In this document: positions 37,472-62,087 of the stretch, piece by piece
Position numbering within the stretch: position 1 is the first letter of the stretch
Layout of the letters: the number at the start of each line of letters is the position of its first letter
DNA from: Pseudomonadota bacterium
Lineage (GTDB): Bacteria; Desulfobacterota; Desulfobulbia; Desulfobulbales; Desulfocapsaceae
Direction of reading: 5' to 3'
DNA length: 64,000 nt
NCBI GenBank assembly: GCA_018821985.1
Contig: JAHJKP010000003.1
Span: 62,001 to 126,000, forward strand
The notes under the pieces: generated by a model
What the model saw: only the letters and a program-made list of their open reading frames with translations
Database searches by the model: none
What the model was told of the DNA's origin: nothing
Position numbers and translations under genes: made by a program

Positions 37472-37777
37472 ATGAAAAAACTCCAACCAAAGCTCGTAAA
37501 ATTCGTCAGCGAACGGAATTGGGAGCAGTTTCACTCCCCCAAGAATCTGGCAATGGCCCTCAGTGTTGAGACTGCGGAACTGGTGGAGATCTTTCAATGG
37601 ATGGAAGGTGCGGAGAGCAGGAGTGTGGATGCGGCCACCCGAAAACATATTGAAGAGGAGGTGGGCGACGTGATGATCTACCTCACCATGCTTGCCTCCA
37701 AGTTCGACATAAATCCGATAGAGGCCGCCCATAAAAAAATGAAGCTCAATGCTAAGAAATACCCTGTTAATCCTTAA
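37472..37777 (+). CDS. MazG-like nucleotide pyrophosphohydrolase
   Basis: A 101-residue all-alpha NTP pyrophosphohydrolase. The metal-binding pattern is SVETAELVEIFQW followed by EEEVGDVMIYL, the ExxE and ExxD pairs of the MazG/dCTPase-like fold. A basic FVSERNWEQFHSPKNLAMAL precedes it, as in RS21-C6/dCTPase relatives. It probably removes non-canonical or surplus dNTPs; the substrate is not readable. It is divergent from prc and followed by repeat and IS sequences. Confidence 0.88.
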   Translation: MKKLQPKLVKFVSERNWEQFHSPKNLAMALSVETAELVEIFQWMEGAESRSVDAATRKHIEEEVGDVMIYLTMLASKFDINPIEAAHKKMKLNAKKYPVNP

Positions 37778-37828
37778 TGGTAAGTCGTCATAAAAAATAC
37801 AACTATAGCATTACAGTACCTAACCGGC

Positions 37829-37882
37829 ATGAGGAGCCATAAAGAAGATAAAAATGTACTGGGTATTTCTTAACGGCCCCTA
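37829..37882. repeat. palindromic intergenic element, copy 1
   Basis: The left end TGAGGAGCCATAAAGAAG and right end ATTTCTTAACGGCCCCTAA are imperfect inverted copies around a short centre. The right half (TGGGTATTTCTTAACGGCCCCT) closely resembles the right half of copy 4 at 60460-60480. An IS481-type element begins about 9 nt to the right. Confidence 0.55.
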
Positions 37883-37961
37883 AGCTGAAGTAGTTTAAAC
37901 CTGATCTGACACCGAGCTTCTAAAAGTGAGGGTTGTCGGTTTTGATAATTGTACCACCAAC

Positions 37962-37997
37962 AACCAAAACCAAAACCAAAACCAAAACCAAAACCAA
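37962..37997 (+). repeat. short tandem repeat of AACCAA
   Basis: About six copies of the hexamer AACCAA run directly into the GGAGG ribosome site of the transposase relic. Slippage here would change the spacing upstream of that site by six bases at a time, or lengthen a Thr-Lys run if an upstream start were used. Confidence 0.8.
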
Positions 37998-38010
37998 GGA
38001 GGTAACCTTC

Positions 38011-38861
38011 ATGTTGCATTCTAACAATCCAATTATTAAACACAAGGTTGGTCTTTTAAATTTGGCAGAAGAACTTGGCAATGTATCTCAAGCCTGTCGG
38101 ATTATGGGGCTTTCAAGAGATACGTTTTATCGTTACCAGGAGGCAGTTGATGCTGATGGCGTTGATACCTTGCTCAATGCCAATCGGCGAACAGCAAATG
38201 TCAAGAATCGTGTTGACGAGAAGATTGAAGAGGCAGTTGTAAAACATGCCACAGACTTCCCTGCTCATGGCCAGTCAAGAGCCAGTAATGAATTAAGAAA
38301 AACAGGTATTTTTATATAAGCAAGTGGAATTCGCAGTGTTTGGATGAGACATGATCTTGCCTGTTTTAAGAATCGATTACGAGCTTTAGAGGAACAGGTA
38401 GCCCGATATGGTGTTATTCTCACAGAAGCTCAAGTAACTGCCCTTGAAAGAAAGAAGGAGGATGATCAGGCAGCCGGTGAGATTGAAACTGCTCATCCTG
38501 GTTATCTTGGATCGCAGGCTACCTTTTATGTTGGAAATCTTAAAGGTGTTGGTAGGATTTACCAGCAGACCTTCGTAACTACTTATACCAAAGTTGTTTT
38601 TGCCAAGTTGTATACAACAAAAACACCGATTACCGCCGCTGATTTACTCAATGATAAGGTCCTTCCTTTTTTCATTGAGCCAAATTGCCCCTTTTGGGAA
38701 TATTAACTGATAGAGGAACAGAATATTGAGGTAAGGATGAACGACATGATTATCAGCTGTATTTGGCGATTAATGATATTGATCACACAAAGGCTATAGT
38801 CAGGTCACCACAAACAAACGGTATTTGTGAACGGTTTCATAAGACTATTTTACAGGAGTTC
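38011..38861 (+). pseudogene. IS481-family transposase, disrupted
   Basis: The reading begins MLHSNNPIIKHKVGLLNLAE with a helix-turn-helix (CRIMGLSRDTFYRYQE) and continues through a DDE integrase domain (AHPGYLGSQATFYVG, KLYTTKTPITAADLLNDKV, SPQTNGICERFHKTILQEF). It is broken by an in-frame TAA at 38317-38319, a frameshift near 38693, and a TGA in place of a cysteine codon near 38726. The C-terminus after QEF is absent. GGAGG precedes the start. The catalytic parts are recognisable but no intact enzyme can be made. Confidence 0.88.
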
Positions 38862-38878
38862 AGGTCTGATGCTGTCGA

Positions 38879-39823
38879 TTATGGCAACTCCTTTACTTGA
38901 GGAAGTGGGAAAACACGGTTTCGTCCCAGATCTTTTGCTTTATATAGAGCCTTGTCAGCACTGTTCAGTGCCGCTATTGCATCCGGTATATCTTTGTTCA
39001 CTGAATAGATGCCGATACTGCAGGTAACCATAAACATATTCTTATCAGAAGTGATAAAACATTCAGCCGCCAACGCCTTCCTGATCCGTTCAGCAAAGAT
39101 GTATGCTCCGGGCAGCCCACTGTTGTTCAGACCAAAAGCAAATTCCTCGCCTCCAATCCGACCAACAATATCAGTCTCTCGAATATGGCGACGAATGACC
39201 TCCCCTGTTCTAGCCAGTACCCGGTCGCCTGTCTGGTGGCCATGGGTATCATTGATGAGTTTGAAATGATCAAGGTCAAGCATGAGTATGGAAAGATGTT
39301 GACCGGAGCGCTTCGACCGGTTTACTTCCATGTTGAGCTGTTCAATAAAAAAACGTCGGTTATGAAGGCCGGTCAACTCATCGATCCGGGCAAGTTCTTC
39401 AAGTCGTTTCTGCTGTTCGGCAATCTGTTGTGTCAGGTTAGCCCTTTGTAGACTATTTCTGATAGCCCTGTGCAGGCTATCAGGCTCTATGGTGCCTTTA
39501 ACCAGGTAATCTGAAAAGCCGGATTTCATTGCCTCAACTGCCACTAATTCATTCCCCTGGCCGGTCAGCATGATCATTGGCTTTGTACAGCCTTTCTCAA
39601 TCATAAGTTGAAAAATATCAAGACCAGTATCATTGCCGAGTCGGTAATCGATAAAGATCAGATCGGCCTGGTGGCAGACTTGATCGGCCGTTTCAAGAAA
39701 ACAAGTTGATAAAGAAATTATATCTGCCTGTAAATCTGGAATAGCTTCTATGGTTCGCCGCAGGATTTCGATGTCACCAGGGTCATCATCAATAATCAGA
39801 AAACAAAATTTATGGTCACTCAC
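38879..39823 (-). CDS. receiver-GGDEF response regulator (diguanylate cyclase)
   Basis: Residues 1-130 are a receiver domain: acidic IIDDDPGD, the phosphorylated Asp in DLIFIDYRLGND, the Thr in MIMLTGQG and the Lys in YLVKGT. After a coiled coil (about 130-155) comes a GGDEF domain with DELTGLHNRR, active-site GGEEF and an RETD I-site five residues before it. It should make cyclic di-GMP when phosphorylated. GTG 39823 is chosen because AAAGGGA lies about 9 nt upstream; it overlaps the end of the preceding gene by 16 nt. With 314 aa it is the output of the operon. Confidence 0.92.
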   Translation of the reverse strand: MSDHKFCFLIIDDDPGDIEILRRTIEAIPDLQADIISLSTCFLETADQVCHQADLIFIDYRLGNDTGLDIFQLMIEKGCTKPMIMLTGQGNELVAVEAMKSGFSDYLVKGTIEPDSLHRAIRNSLQRANLTQQIAEQQKRLEELARIDELTGLHNRRFFIEQLNMEVNRSKRSGQHLSILMLDLDHFKLINDTHGHQTGDRVLARTGEVIRRHIRETDIVGRIGGEEFAFGLNNSGLPGAYIFAERIRKALAAECFITSDKNMFMVTCSIGIYSVNKDIPDAIAALNSADKALYKAKDLGRNRVFPLPQVKELP

Positions 39824-39837
39824 TTTATTCAGTCCCT

Positions 39838-40287
39838 TTATTTGGGTAAGACAACAATCTGAAACCAATAATCTTCCAGCGCGTGGATTATTTTAGTAAA
39901 CTGCCCAAAGTCAACCGGTTTGGTAATAAAGGACTTGATGCCAAGATTGTAAGTGCGAAGAATATCCTCTTCCTGGGAAGACGTGGTAAGAACCACAATG
40001 ACCAAATGCGGCAGGTCTGGTCTGTCTTTGAGTTGCTGCAAGACATTTCTACCATCAACTTTTGGCATGTTCAGGTCCAAAAGAAAAAGATCCGGCCATG
40101 GCGATGATTTAGGGTCGGAATATTTGCCTCGTCTAAACAGATAATCGAGCGCTTCTTCTCCATTTTCAACGATATGAAGAGTGTTCTTGATTTTACCTTC
40201 GGCCAAGGCACGCCGAGTCAATTCCTGGTCGCCAGGATCATCTTCTGCTAAAAGGATCACAGCCGCTTTTTCGTTTATGTCTTCCAT
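39838..40287 (-). CDS. single-domain response regulator, Rcp1-like
   Basis: A lone 149-residue receiver of the Rcp1-like type, common next to Cache or phytochrome kinases. It has AEDDPGDQELTRRAL, the phospho-acceptor Asp in LFLLDLNMPKVDG, Thr in VVLTTSSQEEDI and Lys in FITKPVDFGQF. Without an output domain it may act as a phosphate sink or relay between the kinase upstream and the receiver-GGDEF protein downstream. It lies between those two genes. Confidence 0.92.
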   Translation of the reverse strand: MEDINEKAAVILLAEDDPGDQELTRRALAEGKIKNTLHIVENGEEALDYLFRRGKYSDPKSSPWPDLFLLDLNMPKVDGRNVLQQLKDRPDLPHLVIVVLTTSSQEEDILRTYNLGIKSFITKPVDFGQFTKIIHALEDYWFQIVVLPK

Positions 40288-40331
40288 TATTTATCCTCAA
40301 TCGGTGATGGTTTAGTTTATATATTGTAAAA

Positions 40332-42293
40332 CTAAGAGGCTCTAGTCAAGGTGAAGCTAAAAAGAGTTCCTTGTCCAGGCTCGGATTCTACCAAAATTTC
40401 ACTGCCATGGCGCTCAACAACTTTCCGGCAGATAGCCAGCCCTATCCCTGAACCCGGATATTCCGCCATCCCGTGCAGGCGTTTGAAAGGGAGGAATATT
40501 CGGTCGCAATATTCCGCTTTGATACCAATGCCATTATCCCTTACCCCGAGCACAACCTTCTCTCCATGAATTTCAGCTGATAAATGGATCAAGGGGCGTT
40601 GTTCTCCGGTAAACTTGAGCGCATTGCCAATCAGATTTTGGTAGAGCTGGGTGAGCATAGTTTTATCCCCTATCACCTGCGGCAAAGAATCCCGGCGAAT
40701 TACCGCGTCTATCTCTTCTATGCGAACAGCCAGAGCATATAAGGCATCATCAACACATAGATCAAGGGAGATAGGAAGATTGGTCATCTCCTTGCGGCCC
40801 GAACGGGACAGGGCAAGCAGGTCCTGGATCAAGGCTTGCATCCTGGTTGCCGCATCAATAATAAAATTAAGGTCCTTTCTCGCATTTTCTGGCAAGGCAT
40901 CACCGGCATCCTTTACTAATAATCCACTAAACGAGGTAAGTTTGCGCAGAGGTTCCTGCAAATCATGGCTGGCCACATAGGTAAATTCATCAAGCTCACT
41001 ATTTCTGCGGGCGAGATCATCACCAATTACGGCCAACTCCTGTGCGTGAACGGCAAGGGCAGTTTCAGCTTTTTTCCTCTCCTCAATTTCAAGATGCATT
41101 TTTTGATATGATTCTGATAAGGATACGGCCATATCATTGAAAGTTTGGGCAAGATCACCAATTTCGTCCCGGGAGGCCTGCTTTATCTGACATTCGAGGT
41201 TACCATTGGCAATTGAGGCCGCTGCCTGTTTTAATCTGGTCAACGGGTTGGCAATTATGCGGGCGGTATAAAAGGCAATTATGGTCGCCAGCAGGATTGC
41301 CGCAATTCCTCCCAGCAGGATCTTTTTTTCAAAAAGAATACTATGGGTCAGAATCTCCTCAGGGTCATGGCTGATCATGACAATCCAGTTTAATTGCTTG
41401 CTGTTGAGCAGCCCCTCAGATCGTATATAGGTAAACAACCGGGACCGTCCGGAACTGTTTTGATCAATAAAATAGCCGGAATCCTCTTTAATTTTTAAAA
41501 AATAAGGTTCTGCCGCAATATTTTTACCCAACTGTGCGACCTTGGAGGAGTAGAGAAGTATGCCGGCATCGGTTATCATCTGTATTTCGGTGGTCTGGTA
41601 TTCCCGCGTTACTATTTCTGCAGTCCTGATCAGGCTCTGCAGAGGAAGAACCCCTTTGATCACTCCCAGAAAATCCCCATTATGGTCATCCAGGCGAACA
41701 GCTATTGTCAGACCTTGTATGCCCGAGCTTTCATCATATTCTACCCCGCCGAGGTACTGGCCATCCTTGCGGGCTCTCTGCCACCATTCTTCATCTGCCT
41801 GCAGATAATCACTGGTTCTGTTTGTCTGGGCGATATTGACCCCGTAGCTGTTCGTGACAAAGATCTCGCTAAAACCGAGATAGCCATAATTCAGTTCAAA
41901 AAAAGTAAAAAATTTTCTACGTAAATCATGGGAGAGCGCAGATGTCGTTATTTCAGTCATTAACGGAGTGGACGTCTGGAGAGGGGTCTGGCGCCACTCC
42001 TCATCCCTTTCAGCAATGTATCTGTCATGATCCGCCAAAGCGGCAAAATGAGTATTTGAGACCAAAAGGGCCTGTTGTAAATCAGAGTCCAACCCGTACC
42101 AGGAAAACTCATCCAGTCGTTTTTGAATATTGTGAGCGGTCTTCATCAAGATGGAATCGGCGATCATGGCCGAATTTTGAGTTGCCGATGTAAGCAGCGA
42201 CCTCTTTCCTTGCTCCAGGCTCAAGAAGATCATGGCGAAAAAAAGCAGCATGATCAAGGCGTATCCTGTTAATATTTTATAGCGGATTCTCAT
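40332..42293 (-). CDS. Cache-HAMP sensor histidine kinase
   Basis: The 653-residue membrane kinase has a first membrane helix (about 7-25), a large periplasmic Cache-like region (about 30-325), a second helix (ILLGGIAAILLATIIAFYTA, about 332-351), HAMP, and the kinase core. The phospho-His is in SHDLQEPLRKLTSFSG. The ATP site has N (YQNLIGNALKF), G1 (DNGIGIK) and G2 (GSGIGLAICRKVVERHG) boxes. Its ATG overlaps the stop of the binding-protein gene (ATGA), so the two are coupled. This suggests the kinase senses a ligand through its own Cache domain, the lipoprotein, or both. Confidence 0.93.
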   Translation of the reverse strand: MRIRYKILTGYALIMLLFFAMIFLSLEQGKRSLLTSATQNSAMIADSILMKTAHNIQKRLDEFSWYGLDSDLQQALLVSNTHFAALADHDRYIAERDEEWRQTPLQTSTPLMTEITTSALSHDLRRKFFTFFELNYGYLGFSEIFVTNSYGVNIAQTNRTSDYLQADEEWWQRARKDGQYLGGVEYDESSGIQGLTIAVRLDDHNGDFLGVIKGVLPLQSLIRTAEIVTREYQTTEIQMITDAGILLYSSKVAQLGKNIAAEPYFLKIKEDSGYFIDQNSSGRSRLFTYIRSEGLLNSKQLNWIVMISHDPEEILTHSILFEKKILLGGIAAILLATIIAFYTARIIANPLTRLKQAAASIANGNLECQIKQASRDEIGDLAQTFNDMAVSLSESYQKMHLEIEERKKAETALAVHAQELAVIGDDLARRNSELDEFTYVASHDLQEPLRKLTSFSGLLVKDAGDALPENARKDLNFIIDAATRMQALIQDLLALSRSGRKEMTNLPISLDLCVDDALYALAVRIEEIDAVIRRDSLPQVIGDKTMLTQLYQNLIGNALKFTGEQRPLIHLSAEIHGEKVVLGVRDNGIGIKAEYCDRIFLPFKRLHGMAEYPGSGIGLAICRKVVERHGSEILVESEPGQGTLFSFTLTRAS

Positions 42294-43438
42294 AAGGTGT
42301 TACTCAGAAAATGGATTTTTTCCTGTCTGATCTGAGCTGGATACAGCTGGAAGTTTATCTCGTGACTTCCCGGAACAACTCGGATATCGCCCATGGAACC
42401 TGGGAAATTATACCCTTGCTCTAGGAGCTTTTTTACATTTTCTCTGCTCAATTCCTGGCCGCTTAGCAGCCCTGCCACTAATTTGACAATATCGTAACCC
42501 GTTGCAGCGTAATGGCTAAGGGGGAGATGATAGGCGGATGTGTATTTTTCAGAGAGTTCTTTGGTATAGGGATATGCTTGATTGTATATCATTGGTGAGG
42601 CTAAATAGACTCCTTCAAAGGCCGGATTTTTTCTGGCGGAGGTATCTGCAGCACCGGAGGTAGCAAGCAGATGACCGCTATAACCGGTAGCACGGATCTG
42701 GGTAAGAATCATTGAGATATGGGAGGCAAAACCTCCTATGTATATAGCATCCGTTTCCTGAACTTCTTTGATTTGTGTCTCAAAATCCTTGGTGTTGGAG
42801 GGGAAAGATACTCCGATGATGCTGCGGTTTTTCCCGGAGCTGTCCTCTTCCAGTTGCTGAAACAACGATTTTCCGTAGGGATCATCAAGGTAGATGACCC
42901 CCAGTCTGTTTACGTTCAGTTTGTTCAGGATATTGGTGATGGGCGGCGTCTCATCTTGCGCGGTTACCCAGTATCTAAAAATCCATTCCTTGCCGGAAAG
43001 CAGGTTTTTTGCTGCCGTGGGAGCTGCGATCAGTGGGACCTTTGCCTCTTCGGCCATGTCCCTGGTAGCCATGGCGATTGAACTCATATTGACGACATAG
43101 AAGAGGGGGTTATGTTCTTTTTCCAGCTTCTGGAAGGCGGCCTTACCACCTTCCGGGGTAGTTTTGCTATCCTCTACAATCAATTCGATTTTATGGCCGT
43201 TGATGCCACCAGTCCGGTTTATATCATCTGCTGCCATCTCCATACCATTCCGAAATTCCTGCAAATAAAATCCGGGCCCGGTAAGGGAGAGAATAGCACC
43301 GATCTTGACAGGCTCTTTTTGACTGGAGCAGGATACCGAAAAAATTGCCATCATAAGAACAAGGGAGGTGACACAGTTAACCACCCGAAAAGTAACGGTC
43401 TTCTTCTTGGTGGAAGATCTAAAGAGTTTTGCAAGCAT
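42290..43438 (-). CDS. ABC-type substrate-binding lipoprotein, branched-chain amino acid type
   Basis: This is a periplasmic binding protein of the LivJ/Peripla_BP_6 type, 382 aa. A signal peptide ends in the lipobox SVSC (near residue 36), so it is lipid-anchored. The start of the mature part, VKIGAILSLTGPGFYLQEFRNGMEMAADDINRTGG, is typical. No permease or ATPase genes are nearby; instead a histidine kinase gene overlaps it by 4 nt. The protein is thus likely a sensor component rather than a transporter. The ligand may be an amino acid, amide or aromatic compound. AAGG lies 8 nt before the ATG. Confidence 0.9.
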   Translation of the reverse strand: MLAKLFRSSTKKKTVTFRVVNCVTSLVLMMAIFSVSCSSQKEPVKIGAILSLTGPGFYLQEFRNGMEMAADDINRTGGINGHKIELIVEDSKTTPEGGKAAFQKLEKEHNPLFYVVNMSSIAMATRDMAEEAKVPLIAAPTAAKNLLSGKEWIFRYWVTAQDETPPITNILNKLNVNRLGVIYLDDPYGKSLFQQLEEDSSGKNRSIIGVSFPSNTKDFETQIKEVQETDAIYIGGFASHISMILTQIRATGYSGHLLATSGAADTSARKNPAFEGVYLASPMIYNQAYPYTKELSEKYTSAYHLPLSHYAATGYDIVKLVAGLLSGQELSRENVKKLLEQGYNFPGSMGDIRVVPGSHEINFQLYPAQIRQEKIHFLSNTL

Positions 43439-43697
43439 GACGCACCTTTTGAAAAGAGAGGGGGGTAGAGTTTATTCTACAACGAAACAGCACTGTTATT
43501 TTTTGGACCGGACAATGCTAAAGTTAAATAGTATTGGCAAGATAAATCCATTGACTGAAAAAAAAGCAAGGTTCGCTTTCTCTGGACTATCCTATAAGCC
43601 TATGATAGTTATATGAGTCGGTTATATGGCAAAATAGGACAAGTTTTCTATGCAAGCCTCTTACGGTGTTAATGGCATAATTTAAGGCACCGCCTTC

Positions 43698-43826
43698 AGA
43701 CTCACAAAATCAAGATTGCCAGAATGGACCTTAACCCATTTGACATTGGTCGTAAATATTAGCTTACTTATATTTGATTGAGAGGGAGTGTTTTTCGCCC
43801 TTACTGTCAAATCCGATTTGAGTTAC
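43698..43826 (+). repeat. intergenic relic B, paired with the one at 22389
   Basis: The 392-nt gap between the binding-protein gene and recQ (43439-43830) has no gene. Its right part aligns with relic A: the first 70 nt align without gaps, including a frame ending FDIGRKY and TAG, and the end TGTCAAATCCGATTTGAGTTA (43805-43825) matches A at 18 of 21 positions. The left part of the gap, upstream of the sensory operon, must hold that operon's promoter but shows no clear -35/-10 pair. Confidence 0.55.
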
Positions 43827-43830
43827 TACA

Positions 43831-46008
43831 TTAATCTGAATCCGCATCATCGTTTACCTCTTCCATCTTCCCGCCCTGGGACAGGAGAAATCCGCGGACA
43901 ATATGTGCCTGTTCGTATCCCGCCCTCCCCTCCATGCCATCCACTATCGGTTTAAGACGCTGGAGACCATGGACCCTGAACAGTTCGGCCATCTCACTCC
44001 GCACTGCCAGATCAACATAATCACCCACATCCAACCCCTTTCCCTGCTGTAGAAGCTCTCCAATATGGGAGGCAATGGTCGATGGTTTCAACTCCCGCTC
44101 GGCAGCCATTTCCTCCACGCTCATCCCTGTCTCCGCCAGTCGCAATGTTTCTCCCAAGGTCTGACCGGATGTCTGTTTTCTGGCAGCAGATGGCGCGGTG
44201 ACCTTTGTGGCCTGCTGCGGACAGGCCTCGGGGTTATCGGTCAGATAGTTTCCAATGATTTCAAGAAAAGGTTTTCCATACCGTTCAAGTTTCATCTGCC
44301 CCACCCCGTTTATTCCAAGCAGGGCATCAGGGGTTTGCGGCATGAGGCTGCTCATCTGATGCAGGCTCTTATCGGAGAACAGAATATAAGGCGGCACCCC
44401 TTCTTTCTCAGCCATGTCGCGCCGCAGTTTTTTAAGAAGCGTAAACAACTGTTCATCATACAAGGATTCCTCCGACTTAGTACCCCTATCCTCAAGCATC
44501 TGGTGGGTGACAAATTCTGCCCGGCCAAAGAGGACCTCATCCCCCGCGGCCGTGATATGCAGCATGGGATAAGGCTCACCTTCGCTCTTGAGCAACCCCT
44601 GACTGAGCATACCGTCGATGAGCTGCCGCCAGAATCGCTTGCCGCGGTCCCGTCCCACCCCGTAGGTCTTGAGCTGATCATGACCTAAGGCGCTGATCCG
44701 TCCGGTCTTGGCCCCATAGACGATATCGACAATATGGCCGGCTCCAAAGCGCTGTCCGCTGCGATAAATGGCCGACATGACCATCTGGGCCTCAGTACTG
44801 GCAACAACGCTTTGCACCCCATGCACACAGACGTCACAGGCGCCGCAGTTATCCCGGTCATACTCCTCATCAAAATAGTGGAGTACGGCCCGCCTGCGGC
44901 AGACAGGCTGCTCAGCCAGAGCCATCATCCTGTTCAATTGGGCCAGACCGGCCTGACGTTCCCGCTCGTCAGGCAACTGATCGATAAAGGGCCGCAGGCG
45001 GAAATAATCGCCACGCGAGTACAAGAGCAGACAGAGGGCAGGCTCGCCATCGCGCCCGGCCCGGCCCGTCTCCTGATAATAGCCCTCCATGCTTTTGGGC
45101 AGATCGCCATGGATCACAAAACGGACATTGGACTTGTCGATCCCCATGCCAAAGGCGACTGTGGCCACCACCACCTGCACCTCATCCCGATTAAAGGCCT
45201 CCTGATTATGGCCGCGAGTCTGCTTGTCGAGCCCTGCATGATACGGCAGGGCCTTGACCCCCCGTTTCTGCAGCCAGGCCGCCGTCTTTTCCACATCGGC
45301 GCGGCTTAAGCGATAGATAATCCCGGCCTCGTCGGCATGGGCGCGAACGACGGCCTCGATCTGGCTGTTCACCTGATCCCGAAGCTGGATCTGATAAAAG
45401 AGATTGGGCCGGTCAAAGGAGGCCCGGGTCATGAGCGGCTGGTTCAGGGCCAGACGGCGAACGATATCCTCCTGAACCCTCTGGGTGGCGGTGGCGGTAA
45501 AGGCGGTAATCGGCACCCCGGGCAGTTCCTGCTTCAGGCTGGAGAGGGCCAGATAATCAGGACGAAAATCATGGCCCCACTCAGAGATGCAGTGCGCCTC
45601 ATCGACTGCCACAAACGAGAGGGGAGCCCGTCTCAGACGCTCAAAAAATCCCGGCAGTGCCAGTCGTTCCGGGGAGAGATAGAGCAGGTCATAGTCTCCC
45701 TCCTGCAGACGGGCCATGACTTCATGCTGCTGAGCGGTGGAGAGGGTGGAGTTGAGCAGACCGGCCTTCATGCCAAAGGCATTGGCCGCATCCACCTGAT
45801 CTTTCATCAGGGAGATCAGAGGACTGACAACCAGACAGGTGCCCTTCATCATCGAGGCAGGCAGTTGATAGCAGAGGGACTTTCCGCCACCGGTGGGCAT
45901 GACCGCAAAGATGTCTCGGCGAGCGAGGATGGCTTGGACGATTTCCTCCTGGTTGGCCCGAAAGGTGGAAAAGCCGAAGATCCTCTGGAGTTGTTCAGTG
46001 TAATTCAA
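43831..46008 (-). CDS. recQ: ATP-dependent DNA helicase RecQ
   Basis: RecQ unwinds DNA 3'-5' in recombinational repair. The helicase motifs are [41 protein letters not shown] and [11 protein letters not shown]. The zinc site is C(RRRAVLHYF...)CGACDVC, then a winged-helix RQC domain and an HRDC domain (about 520-600). A further C-terminal helix-turn-helix ([30 protein letters not shown]) is present, as in the longer bacterial RecQ forms. The TTG at 46008, with AAGG about 8 nt upstream, gives 725 aa starting [13 protein letters not shown]; another TTG at 46065 is possible. It is divergent from the 46083 gene. Confidence 0.95.
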
Positions 46009-60947: not shown

Positions 60948-62087
60948 ATGACGGATTTTTCGCCCTATTACCCGCTCTGGGGCCGGCAACTGCTGGCGGA
61001 GTTCACCAACATCAACTGGCAGTACGGACTGACGCTCACAACCCCGGTCTTTGAGATCAGTGAGAATGAAAGACAGTATGGTTCCTGGCACTCCGCGACC
61101 AGGGTCATCCGCATCAGCACCCGGCTGATCAGCAGCCACTCCTGGGATATCACCTGCCAGATCCTCAAACACGAGATGGCCCATCAGATCTGCTCGGAGC
61201 TTTTTTCCGAGAACGATGCAGGTCACGGCCCCCTCTTCCAGAAGGCGTGTGACCTGCTGGGCCTGCCGGCACCCTTTCGTCTGGCTGCAGGCGATCTGCC
61301 GGTGACCGGGGCCACGGATCCTGCCGGGAACCAGCAGACCGAGAAGGGACGGCAGTTCATCCGCAGGATCGGCAAGCTCCTGGCCCTGGCAGGCTCGAAT
61401 AATGAACATGAGGCAGCCATCGCCATGGAAAAGGCCAGCCAGCTGATGGCGCGCCACAATCTGCAGCAGATCCAGGAAGACGCACAATCCGAATTCACCT
61501 CCCTGATTATCAACAACAAGTCCAAACGGCTGGAGAGATGGCAGCACAAGATCTGCGCCATCCTCCTCCGCTTTTTTTATGTAAAGGTGGTCACCGCCAG
61601 CCTCTACGATCCGCTGCAGGATTGCCTGCACAAGACGATCGAGATCTTTGGCAGGCAGGAGAATGTGGCCATTGCCGAGTACTGCTACGCCTTTCTGGCG
61701 GGCCAGCTTACCTCACTGTGGCAAGAGAACAGGAGCAGGATCAGAGGCAAGGGCATCCGGGCGCGGAACAGTTATTACCTGGGAGTCCTGCAGGGATTTT
61801 ACGACAAGCTGCTGGCCCAGGAGGCGCTGACAAGGCGGCCGAGGCCTGAGAAGAGGGAAACAGAGAGATCTGGTGCTCCGGGCATGGCCCTTTTGATCCA
61901 GGCGGAAGAGAGGGAATTGGACCGTTTTGTGGGGATGCGTTTTCCCCGCTTGCGCAGGCGATCCGGAACTGGGGCCATGATCTACCGGGAGAGCTATGAA
62001 CTGGGGCGGACGGATGGCGGACAGATTGTCCTGCACAAGGGGGTTACGGAGCAGAGAGGCGAGCAGGGTTTGCTGCTTTCTCGGTGA
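60948..62087 (+). CDS. SprT-like protease and DUF2786 fusion
   Basis: A 379-residue protein. Residues 10-115 are a SprT-like zinc metalloprotease domain with HExxH in LKHEMAHQICSE and a downstream HGPLFQKACDLLG. Residues 125-250 match DUF2786, a helical domain (GRQFIRRIGKLLALAGSNNEHEAAIAMEKASQLMARHNL) often found in phage and plasmid proteins. The C-terminal part is basic. SprT-type proteases in eukaryotes cut DNA-protein crosslinks; a role in DNA or ribosome quality control is possible but unproven. It is 24 nt downstream of arfB, which suggests one operon. Confidence 0.82.
   Translation: MTDFSPYYPLWGRQLLAEFTNINWQYGLTLTTPVFEISENERQYGSWHSATRVIRISTRLISSHSWDITCQILKHEMAHQICSELFSENDAGHGPLFQKACDLLGLPAPFRLAAGDLPVTGATDPAGNQQTEKGRQFIRRIGKLLALAGSNNEHEAAIAMEKASQLMARHNLQQIQEDAQSEFTSLIINNKSKRLERWQHKICAILLRFFYVKVVTASLYDPLQDCLHKTIEIFGRQENVAIAEYCYAFLAGQLTSLWQENRSRIRGKGIRARNSYYLGVLQGFYDKLLAQEALTRRPRPEKRETERSGAPGMALLIQAEERELDRFVGMRFPRLRRRSGTGAMIYRESYELGRTDGGQIVLHKGVTEQRGEQGLLLSR

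Follow-up and report, generated by a model that had tools for sequence, protein, structure and literature searches.

What does a solute-binding protein do when its neighbour is a histidine kinase instead of a transporter? The question is raised by a 64,000-nucleotide stretch of DNA (positions 62,001 to 126,000 of contig JAHJKP010000003.1, from a Desulfocapsaceae genome; hereafter the window), in which four minus-strand genes at positions 38879-43438, all with intact reading frames, encode a predicted solute-binding lipoprotein (SBP), a histidine kinase with a putative double-Cache (dCache) sensor, a lone receiver and a receiver-GGDEF protein (Table 1). The operon is likely to form a route from an outside solute to cyclic di-GMP. 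The membrane-tethered SBP would catch an extracellular solute and, loaded or empty, dock on the dCache domain of the kinase and alter kinase activity. The kinase would phosphorylate the receiver of the GGDEF protein, and cyclic di-GMP would rise until the I-site stops the cyclase. The lone receiver may be a second target of the same kinase, draining phosphate or serving its own protein partner, and may take the place of the internal receiver of the hybrid kinases. We infer every biochemical step of this route, namely the contact between SBP and sensor, the direction of control, the phosphotransfer to both receivers and the cyclase activity.

The four genes overlap or nearly touch, as had been read from the sequence alone, and the coordinates agree with that sequence-only reading. 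The SBP and kinase genes overlap by 4 bp, 44 bp separate the kinase from the lone receiver, and 14 bp separate the latter from the cyclase if its start is GTG 39823. This start is more likely than TTG 39868; an AGGGA stretch lies upstream of the GTG, and a start at the TTG would overlap the receiver gene. In the kinase, the HAMP, HisKA (SHDLQEPLR, with H443) and HATPase_c domains are above the Pfam cut-off, while dCache_1 reaches 40.5 bits, under the cut-off of 45. The phospho-acceptor residues are kept in both receivers, as D71/T101/K123 in the lone one, which is a single receiver domain, and as D59/T87/K109 in the cyclase. The GGEEF of the cyclase occupies residues 224-228, and an RETD I-site, with the position of a product-inhibition motif, lies at 215-218, five residues before it. 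The receiver-GGDEF protein is an intact-looking diguanylate cyclase with an I-site, the output that the same reading had assigned to the operon.

Comparison with relatives indicates that the pairing of SBP and kinase is not accidental. Close SBP homologues are rare, being found in 9 of the 257 class genomes, counting that of the window, and in 8 of 395 sampled genomes of the phylum. The sample analysed here comprises 12 distinct genomes, that is, the window and 11 kept homologues: the nine class genomes (E <= 1e-45), G266 and G269 from among the eight phylum matches (four of the eight had also been found in the class search), and one SAR324 record among the matches listed. Duplicates (G244/L034, G006/L032, G009/L033) were counted once, and G399 (E 9e-61) and G447 (E 1e-46) were set aside as weaker matches. 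The 11 homologues are 36-43% identical to the window SBP, one of them 33%, and the 12 members span six family labels (f1, f3, f8, f12, f25, f28) plus SAR324. A histidine kinase is the next gene downstream of the SBP in the window and in 11/11 kept homologues, and this order holds at 12 of 14 loci when G399 and G447 are included. All 12 of these kinases carry HisKA and HATPase_c, 11 carry HAMP (not G269), and dCache_1 is detected at E <= 1e-3 in 10 (not G055 and SAR324), above the Pfam cut-off only in G245. The periplasmic parts of the homologous kinases align to that of the window at 20-35% identity. Wider SBP searches around G266 (10 genomes) and G269 (4 genomes) recovered only G266 and G269 themselves.

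The sequence-only reading had a binding lipoprotein associated with a kinase in place of a transporter, and this is borne out by the conserved gene order. It had also named permease and ATPase genes closely linked to the SBP in relatives as what would speak against it. A phmmer search (E <= 1e-5) with eight reference LivH, LivM, LivG and LivF proteins gave no match in the whole window, and LivH and LivM are absent from the stretches of 7-17 kb examined around each of the 11 homologues; locus L082 has a single weak LivF-type (ABC-ATPase) match (E 2e-6), 4.4 kb away. In a control of 34 distant SBP relatives among the matches listed, 23 have Liv genes within the stretch examined around them, 3 a kinase core and 8 neither. 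The genome of the window itself encodes five Peripla_BP_6 proteins, two beside Liv permeases and three beside kinases. With N-termini read by eye, a lipobox-like Cys is present in 7 of the 12 SBPs (6 at the aligned column, that of G244 slightly shifted) and a hydrophobic anchor-like start devoid of Cys in the other 5 (G055, SAR324, G245, G242, G266), as if attachment of the SBP to the membrane mattered more than its chemistry.

AlphaFold models built from the 12-member alignments are of good quality, with predicted local distance difference test (pLDDT) scores of 89.0 for the SBP and 84.7 for the kinase sensor. The SBP model resembles Liv-class and related binding proteins (Z 31.5-37.6, best 50 listed), and the sensor model is a double Cache by its predicted fold (Z 15.5-20.8, best 50 listed). 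Its top matches are two integrative chemoreceptor models (Z 20-21), PscC (19.4), 8w7p (17.9) and DctB (17.6); LuxQ is not among the best 50 listed, which excludes nothing. A structure from Desulfohalobium retbaense, PDB 5ERE, is matched by both models: the SBP model aligns with chain residues 32-356 (Z 32.4) and the sensor model with residues 353-593 (Z 15.6), in the order of the operon genes. Since this natural chain joins both parts, the analogy suggests that the SBP and the kinase sensor of the operon act as one sensor. The dCache part of 5ERE (Dret_0059, 322-562) is tabulated under cytosine, and the same source lists LuxQ as a Cache domain devoid of a ligand of its own (PMC8694187). The extracytoplasmic domain of the kinase, a dCache in its modelled fold, is thus of a type known to accept SBPs.

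Which ligand is caught is a separate matter. In the phmmer alignment, the column of LivJ Glu226, which holds the amino group of the ligand, is S261 in the window SBP and S, N or A in 12/12 members, with no acidic residue; that of LivJ Thr102 is T141 in the window and T in 7/12. The amino-acid motif of dCache domains includes R126 and D173 of PctA (PMC10104139). The corresponding columns, placed by a weak alignment via PctB (E 0.32), are E168 and V215 in the window sensor; in the first, none of the 12 members has R (one has K), and in the second none has D (one has E). Taken at the residue level, an amino-acid ligand is not supported: the sequence-only reading had called the SBP amino-acid-type, which is right for its fold only, the LivJ Glu226 and the Arg/Asp residues of dCache_1AA domains being missing in all 12. 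Our guess is that the SBP catches a non-amino-acid ligand.

Alternatively, the SBP might be an orphan transport protein that serves the Liv permeases of the genome, the Cache domain of the kinase sensing something else directly. The genome has two Liv-type sites with permease genes elsewhere, one with LivH and LivM and the other with LivH, and direct ligand binding is described as frequent in dCache domains (PMC10104139). A precedent exists, in that AgtS and AruS showed no binding to the proteins encoded next to them (PMC11113362); neighbouring SBP and kinase genes are therefore not always partners. However, both Liv sites have their own SBP, this SBP type adjoins a kinase away from LivH and LivM in the window and the 11 homologues, the Cache domain is devoid of the amino-acid motif, and 5ERE unites the two parts in one chain, which together make this explanation unlikely.

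The AgtS and AruS precedent also weighs against the proposed route from solute to cyclic di-GMP, as do five further observations. At the loci of G399 and G447, the protein beside the SBP is cut by the contig end and has no Pfam match, and no kinase is seen. Several of the 12 loci carry further kinases, so kinase neighbours are not rare there. In a mirror-tree comparison of the nine divergent members, the SBP-sensor correlation (r 0.39, p 0.08) is no better than that of the SBP with the kinase core (0.405, p 0.003), and therefore gives no signal of specific co-evolution; an SBP-sensor r of 0.90 over all 12 members was discarded as driven by near-identical groups. A receiver-GGDEF protein lies downstream of the kinase in the window only, among the 12. 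Finally, the genome has 41 GGDEF matches, so the weight of this cyclase in the cell is uncertain.

The role of the lone receiver can be approached through its relatives and its distribution. The comparison with Rcp1, made for the lone receiver of the window only, reveals full-length similarity (1jlk, E 2e-29 over 146 query residues). Its named solved relatives include Rcp1, RcpA and RcpB (E 2e-29 to 7e-28), and its best solved match is the response regulator 5te9 (E 1e-37). Seven loci share a non-hybrid kinase followed by a lone receiver. The next gene encodes a receiver-GGDEF protein in the window, a receiver-kinase in G055, G245 and G242, a receiver-PAS protein before the contig end in G244, a receiver-HD-GYP protein in G266, and a receiver-PAS-kinase of at least 2,073 amino acids in G269; the last (L089:1-6220) ends in a kinase and has many PAS domains (8 PAS_3 stretches). 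In G006, G009 and SAR324, a three-receiver hybrid kinase is followed by CheR, CheB and a receiver-kinase, and in G114 and G170 a one-receiver hybrid is followed by unrelated genes. A lone receiver thus accompanies 7/7 non-hybrid and 0/5 hybrid kinases; if kinship is ignored, a split like this has a chance of 1 in 792, but the kinase cores fall into only about five groups. The lone receiver of the window is 52% identical to that of G269, 35% to that of G055 and 23% to the shorter one of G266. To note, the SBP-linked three-receiver hybrids lie at L025:4044-8477, L026:4264-8706 and L035:9143-13267, and no chemoreceptor was noticed in the open reading frame (ORF) lists of these loci, no search having been aimed at chemoreceptors.

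The sequence-only reading had left the lone receiver as a phosphate sink or a relay. As a relay it would be the intermediate of a chain from the kinase through the lone receiver and an HPt protein to the receiver-GGDEF protein. The genome has eight HPt matches, two of them in short ORFs (113 and 188 amino acids) that may encode free-standing HPt proteins. The contig of the window carries none of the eight, and the kinase can in principle serve the receiver of the GGDEF protein directly. The relay, which needs an HPt, is therefore quite improbable, and a role as a sink or as a separate output is the better fit.

The outputs around these SBP-kinase pairs vary. In 4 of the 12 loci the cassette has a cyclic di-GMP enzyme next to it, downstream in the window (GGDEF) and G266 (HD-GYP), upstream in G006 (GGDEF-EAL) and G009 (GGDEF). 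Input and output appear to be exchanged among the cassettes, judging from core and SBP similarities that point to different members: SAR324 and G006 share 52% identity in the kinase core and 32% in the SBP, and the window kinase core is closest to that of G269 (47%), its SBP to that of G006 (43%). In the same genome, contig C49 carries a second copy of the layout, headed by a 706-residue fusion of two binding-protein families, DctP (TRAP-type) and Peripla_BP_6 (L028:7518-9638); the genes that come next encode a kinase, a lone receiver and a receiver-GAF-GGDEF protein. Between the two operons, identity is 55% for the lone receivers and 41% for the kinase cores; C49 therefore combines a related output set with a different sensor. 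A wider proposal, which we hold only tentatively, is that SBP and dCache form a mobile two-protein input cartridge, which horizontal transfer and swapping of kinase cores would have connected to varied outputs (GGDEF, HD-GYP, receiver-kinases, CheR/CheB hybrids) across distant bacteria; direct ligand binding by the Cache domain would have been lost, and the lone Rcp1-type receiver would replace the internal receiver of the hybrids. In G019, a family member, another Peripla_BP_6 protein is encoded immediately upstream of a dCache_2/HisKA_3 kinase (L122:2991-7448). An 855-residue open frame there was considered as an SBP fusion and rejected, as it looks like an SBP with a long upstream frame, then the kinase.

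SBP-activated kinases are an established class, and the two genes lie close together in 10 of the 11 characterised SBP-kinase pairs (PMC11113362). According to a 2022 review, SBP_bac_3 was the only family of the periplasmic binding protein (PBP) clan that had been studied in cyclic di-GMP networks (PMC8846402). Among known systems, LuxP-LuxQ, the Vibrio autoinducer-2 receptor, likewise pairs a binding protein with a kinase whose periplasmic part is of the Cache type. As a hybrid kinase, LuxQ feeds LuxU/LuxO, whereas here the kinase is non-hybrid and is followed by an Rcp1-type receiver and a receiver-GGDEF protein, and the SBP is of the Peripla_BP_6 family and looks membrane-anchored. NspS-MbaA is similar in being a polyamine-sensing protein pair that modulates cyclic di-GMP (PMC9993111). 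It differs in the position of the enzyme. MbaA is itself a membrane GGDEF/EAL enzyme, while in the operon a kinase and receivers stand between SBP and cyclase. The 5ERE protein has a binding-protein domain and then a dCache, but in a fused chain, where the operon has separate proteins. Pairs of the Cph1-Rcp1 type share the association of a kinase with a lone Rcp1-type receiver; here Pfam finds no phytochrome domain, and the input would be SBP plus Cache. TorT-TorS, XylFII-LytS and BctC-BctE are SBP-activated kinases too, with other SBP families and other outputs. A paper that mentions BctC-BctE, and cites the trimethylamine N-oxide receptor kinase and XylFII-LytS, states that BctC also serves a transporter (PMC9602780).

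Because SBP-activated kinases and SBP control of cyclic di-GMP are already known, what is new is the combination of Peripla_BP_6 protein, dCache kinase, Rcp1-type receiver and receiver-cyclase. Among the papers listed in the literature searches, none describes the four-gene layout in its title or abstract opening, which is no proof of absence. For most sensor kinases it is not known which signal they respond to (PMC11113362), and screening for ligands is simpler with a dedicated binding protein than with a kinase in the membrane. Should the proposed route be correct, it offers a compact connection between a single external chemical and cyclic di-GMP in a lineage that has received little study, a set of 12 or more related cassettes to compare, and in 5ERE a structural guide to how the binding protein may be seated on the double Cache. 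The split between lone receivers and hybrids provides a testable rule on why single receivers are kept.

Table 1. Features of the operon and its surroundings (window positions; aa, amino acids).
Feature	Position	Strand	Basis
Predicted solute-binding lipoprotein (SBP), Peripla_BP_6, 382 aa	42290..43438	-	Pfam E 6e-45, residues 43-371
Lipobox-like FSVSC, Cys37 (residues 33-37)	43328..43342	-	N-terminus of SBP
Histidine kinase dCache-HAMP-HisKA-HATPase, 653 aa, non-hybrid	40332..42293	-	Pfam, fold
Predicted double-Cache periplasmic sensor domain, kinase residues ~30-320	41334..42206	-	Fold model
Lone receiver, Rcp1 (phytochrome response regulator) type, 149 aa	39838..40287	-	Pfam; solved relatives
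Putative receiver-GGDEF diguanylate cyclase, 314 aa from GTG (329 aa from TTG 39868)	38879..39823	-	Pfam
I-site RETD and active site GGEEF of cyclase	39140..39181	-	Motif reading
Intergenic stretch upstream of SBP gene	43439..43830		Promoter scan of region at chance level
Transposase relic, broken, three pieces (HTH_29; unmatched piece; rve_3 below cut-off), abuts cyclase 3' end	37933..38896	+	
6,090-bp block, missing in sister genome G002 (39 bp in its place)	37772..43861		

The operon was probably acquired laterally, gain being inferred rather than loss, because it lies in a 6.1-kb block with a transposase relic inside it that is missing from sister genomes. A RecQ-type helicase gene lies upstream of the operon, and the broken transposase and a MazG-like gene on the other side. 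In G002, the proteins flanking the gap are 92-94% identical to those of the window. Among the other 16 genomes of the genus, eight carry the two flanking genes on a single contig, and the spacing between them is 37-142 bp in six of the eight, 1.0 kb in G008 and 6.9 kb in G013. The block has a G+C content of 0.44 and the operon of 0.46, against 0.49 in the left surroundings and 0.56 in the right. In G006 and G009, which belong to the genus of the window, the cassettes and these flanking genes are on different contigs, so the gains were probably separate. That the operon is a decaying, transposon-borne passenger no longer in use is highly improbable: its absence from sisters, the adjoining broken transposase, its deviating G+C content and the lack of a standout promoter in the scan of the region would fit such a view, but the four reading frames are intact and the catalytic residues kept. 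The promoter scan found 9 promoter-like sites in the region where 9.6 are expected, and the terminator scan is likewise at chance level.

A few further observations concern the block and its edges. It lies between the MazG-like gene and recQ, and the 6.9 kb found there in G013 are other sequence. A repeat scan of 37700-43950 (seed 10, minimum 14, shorter duplications being outside the scan) found no pair bracketing the whole block. An inverted pair (37753-37776/37849-37872, 24 nucleotides, 79%) lies at its left edge. The left-edge stretch 37850-37885 recurs at 86-94% on contigs C36 and C54, the C54 copy adjoining a tRNA-Val gene. At 37962-37997, just before the likely ribosome-binding site of the transposase relic, six AACCAA hexamers stand head to tail (Thr-Lys repeats if translated).

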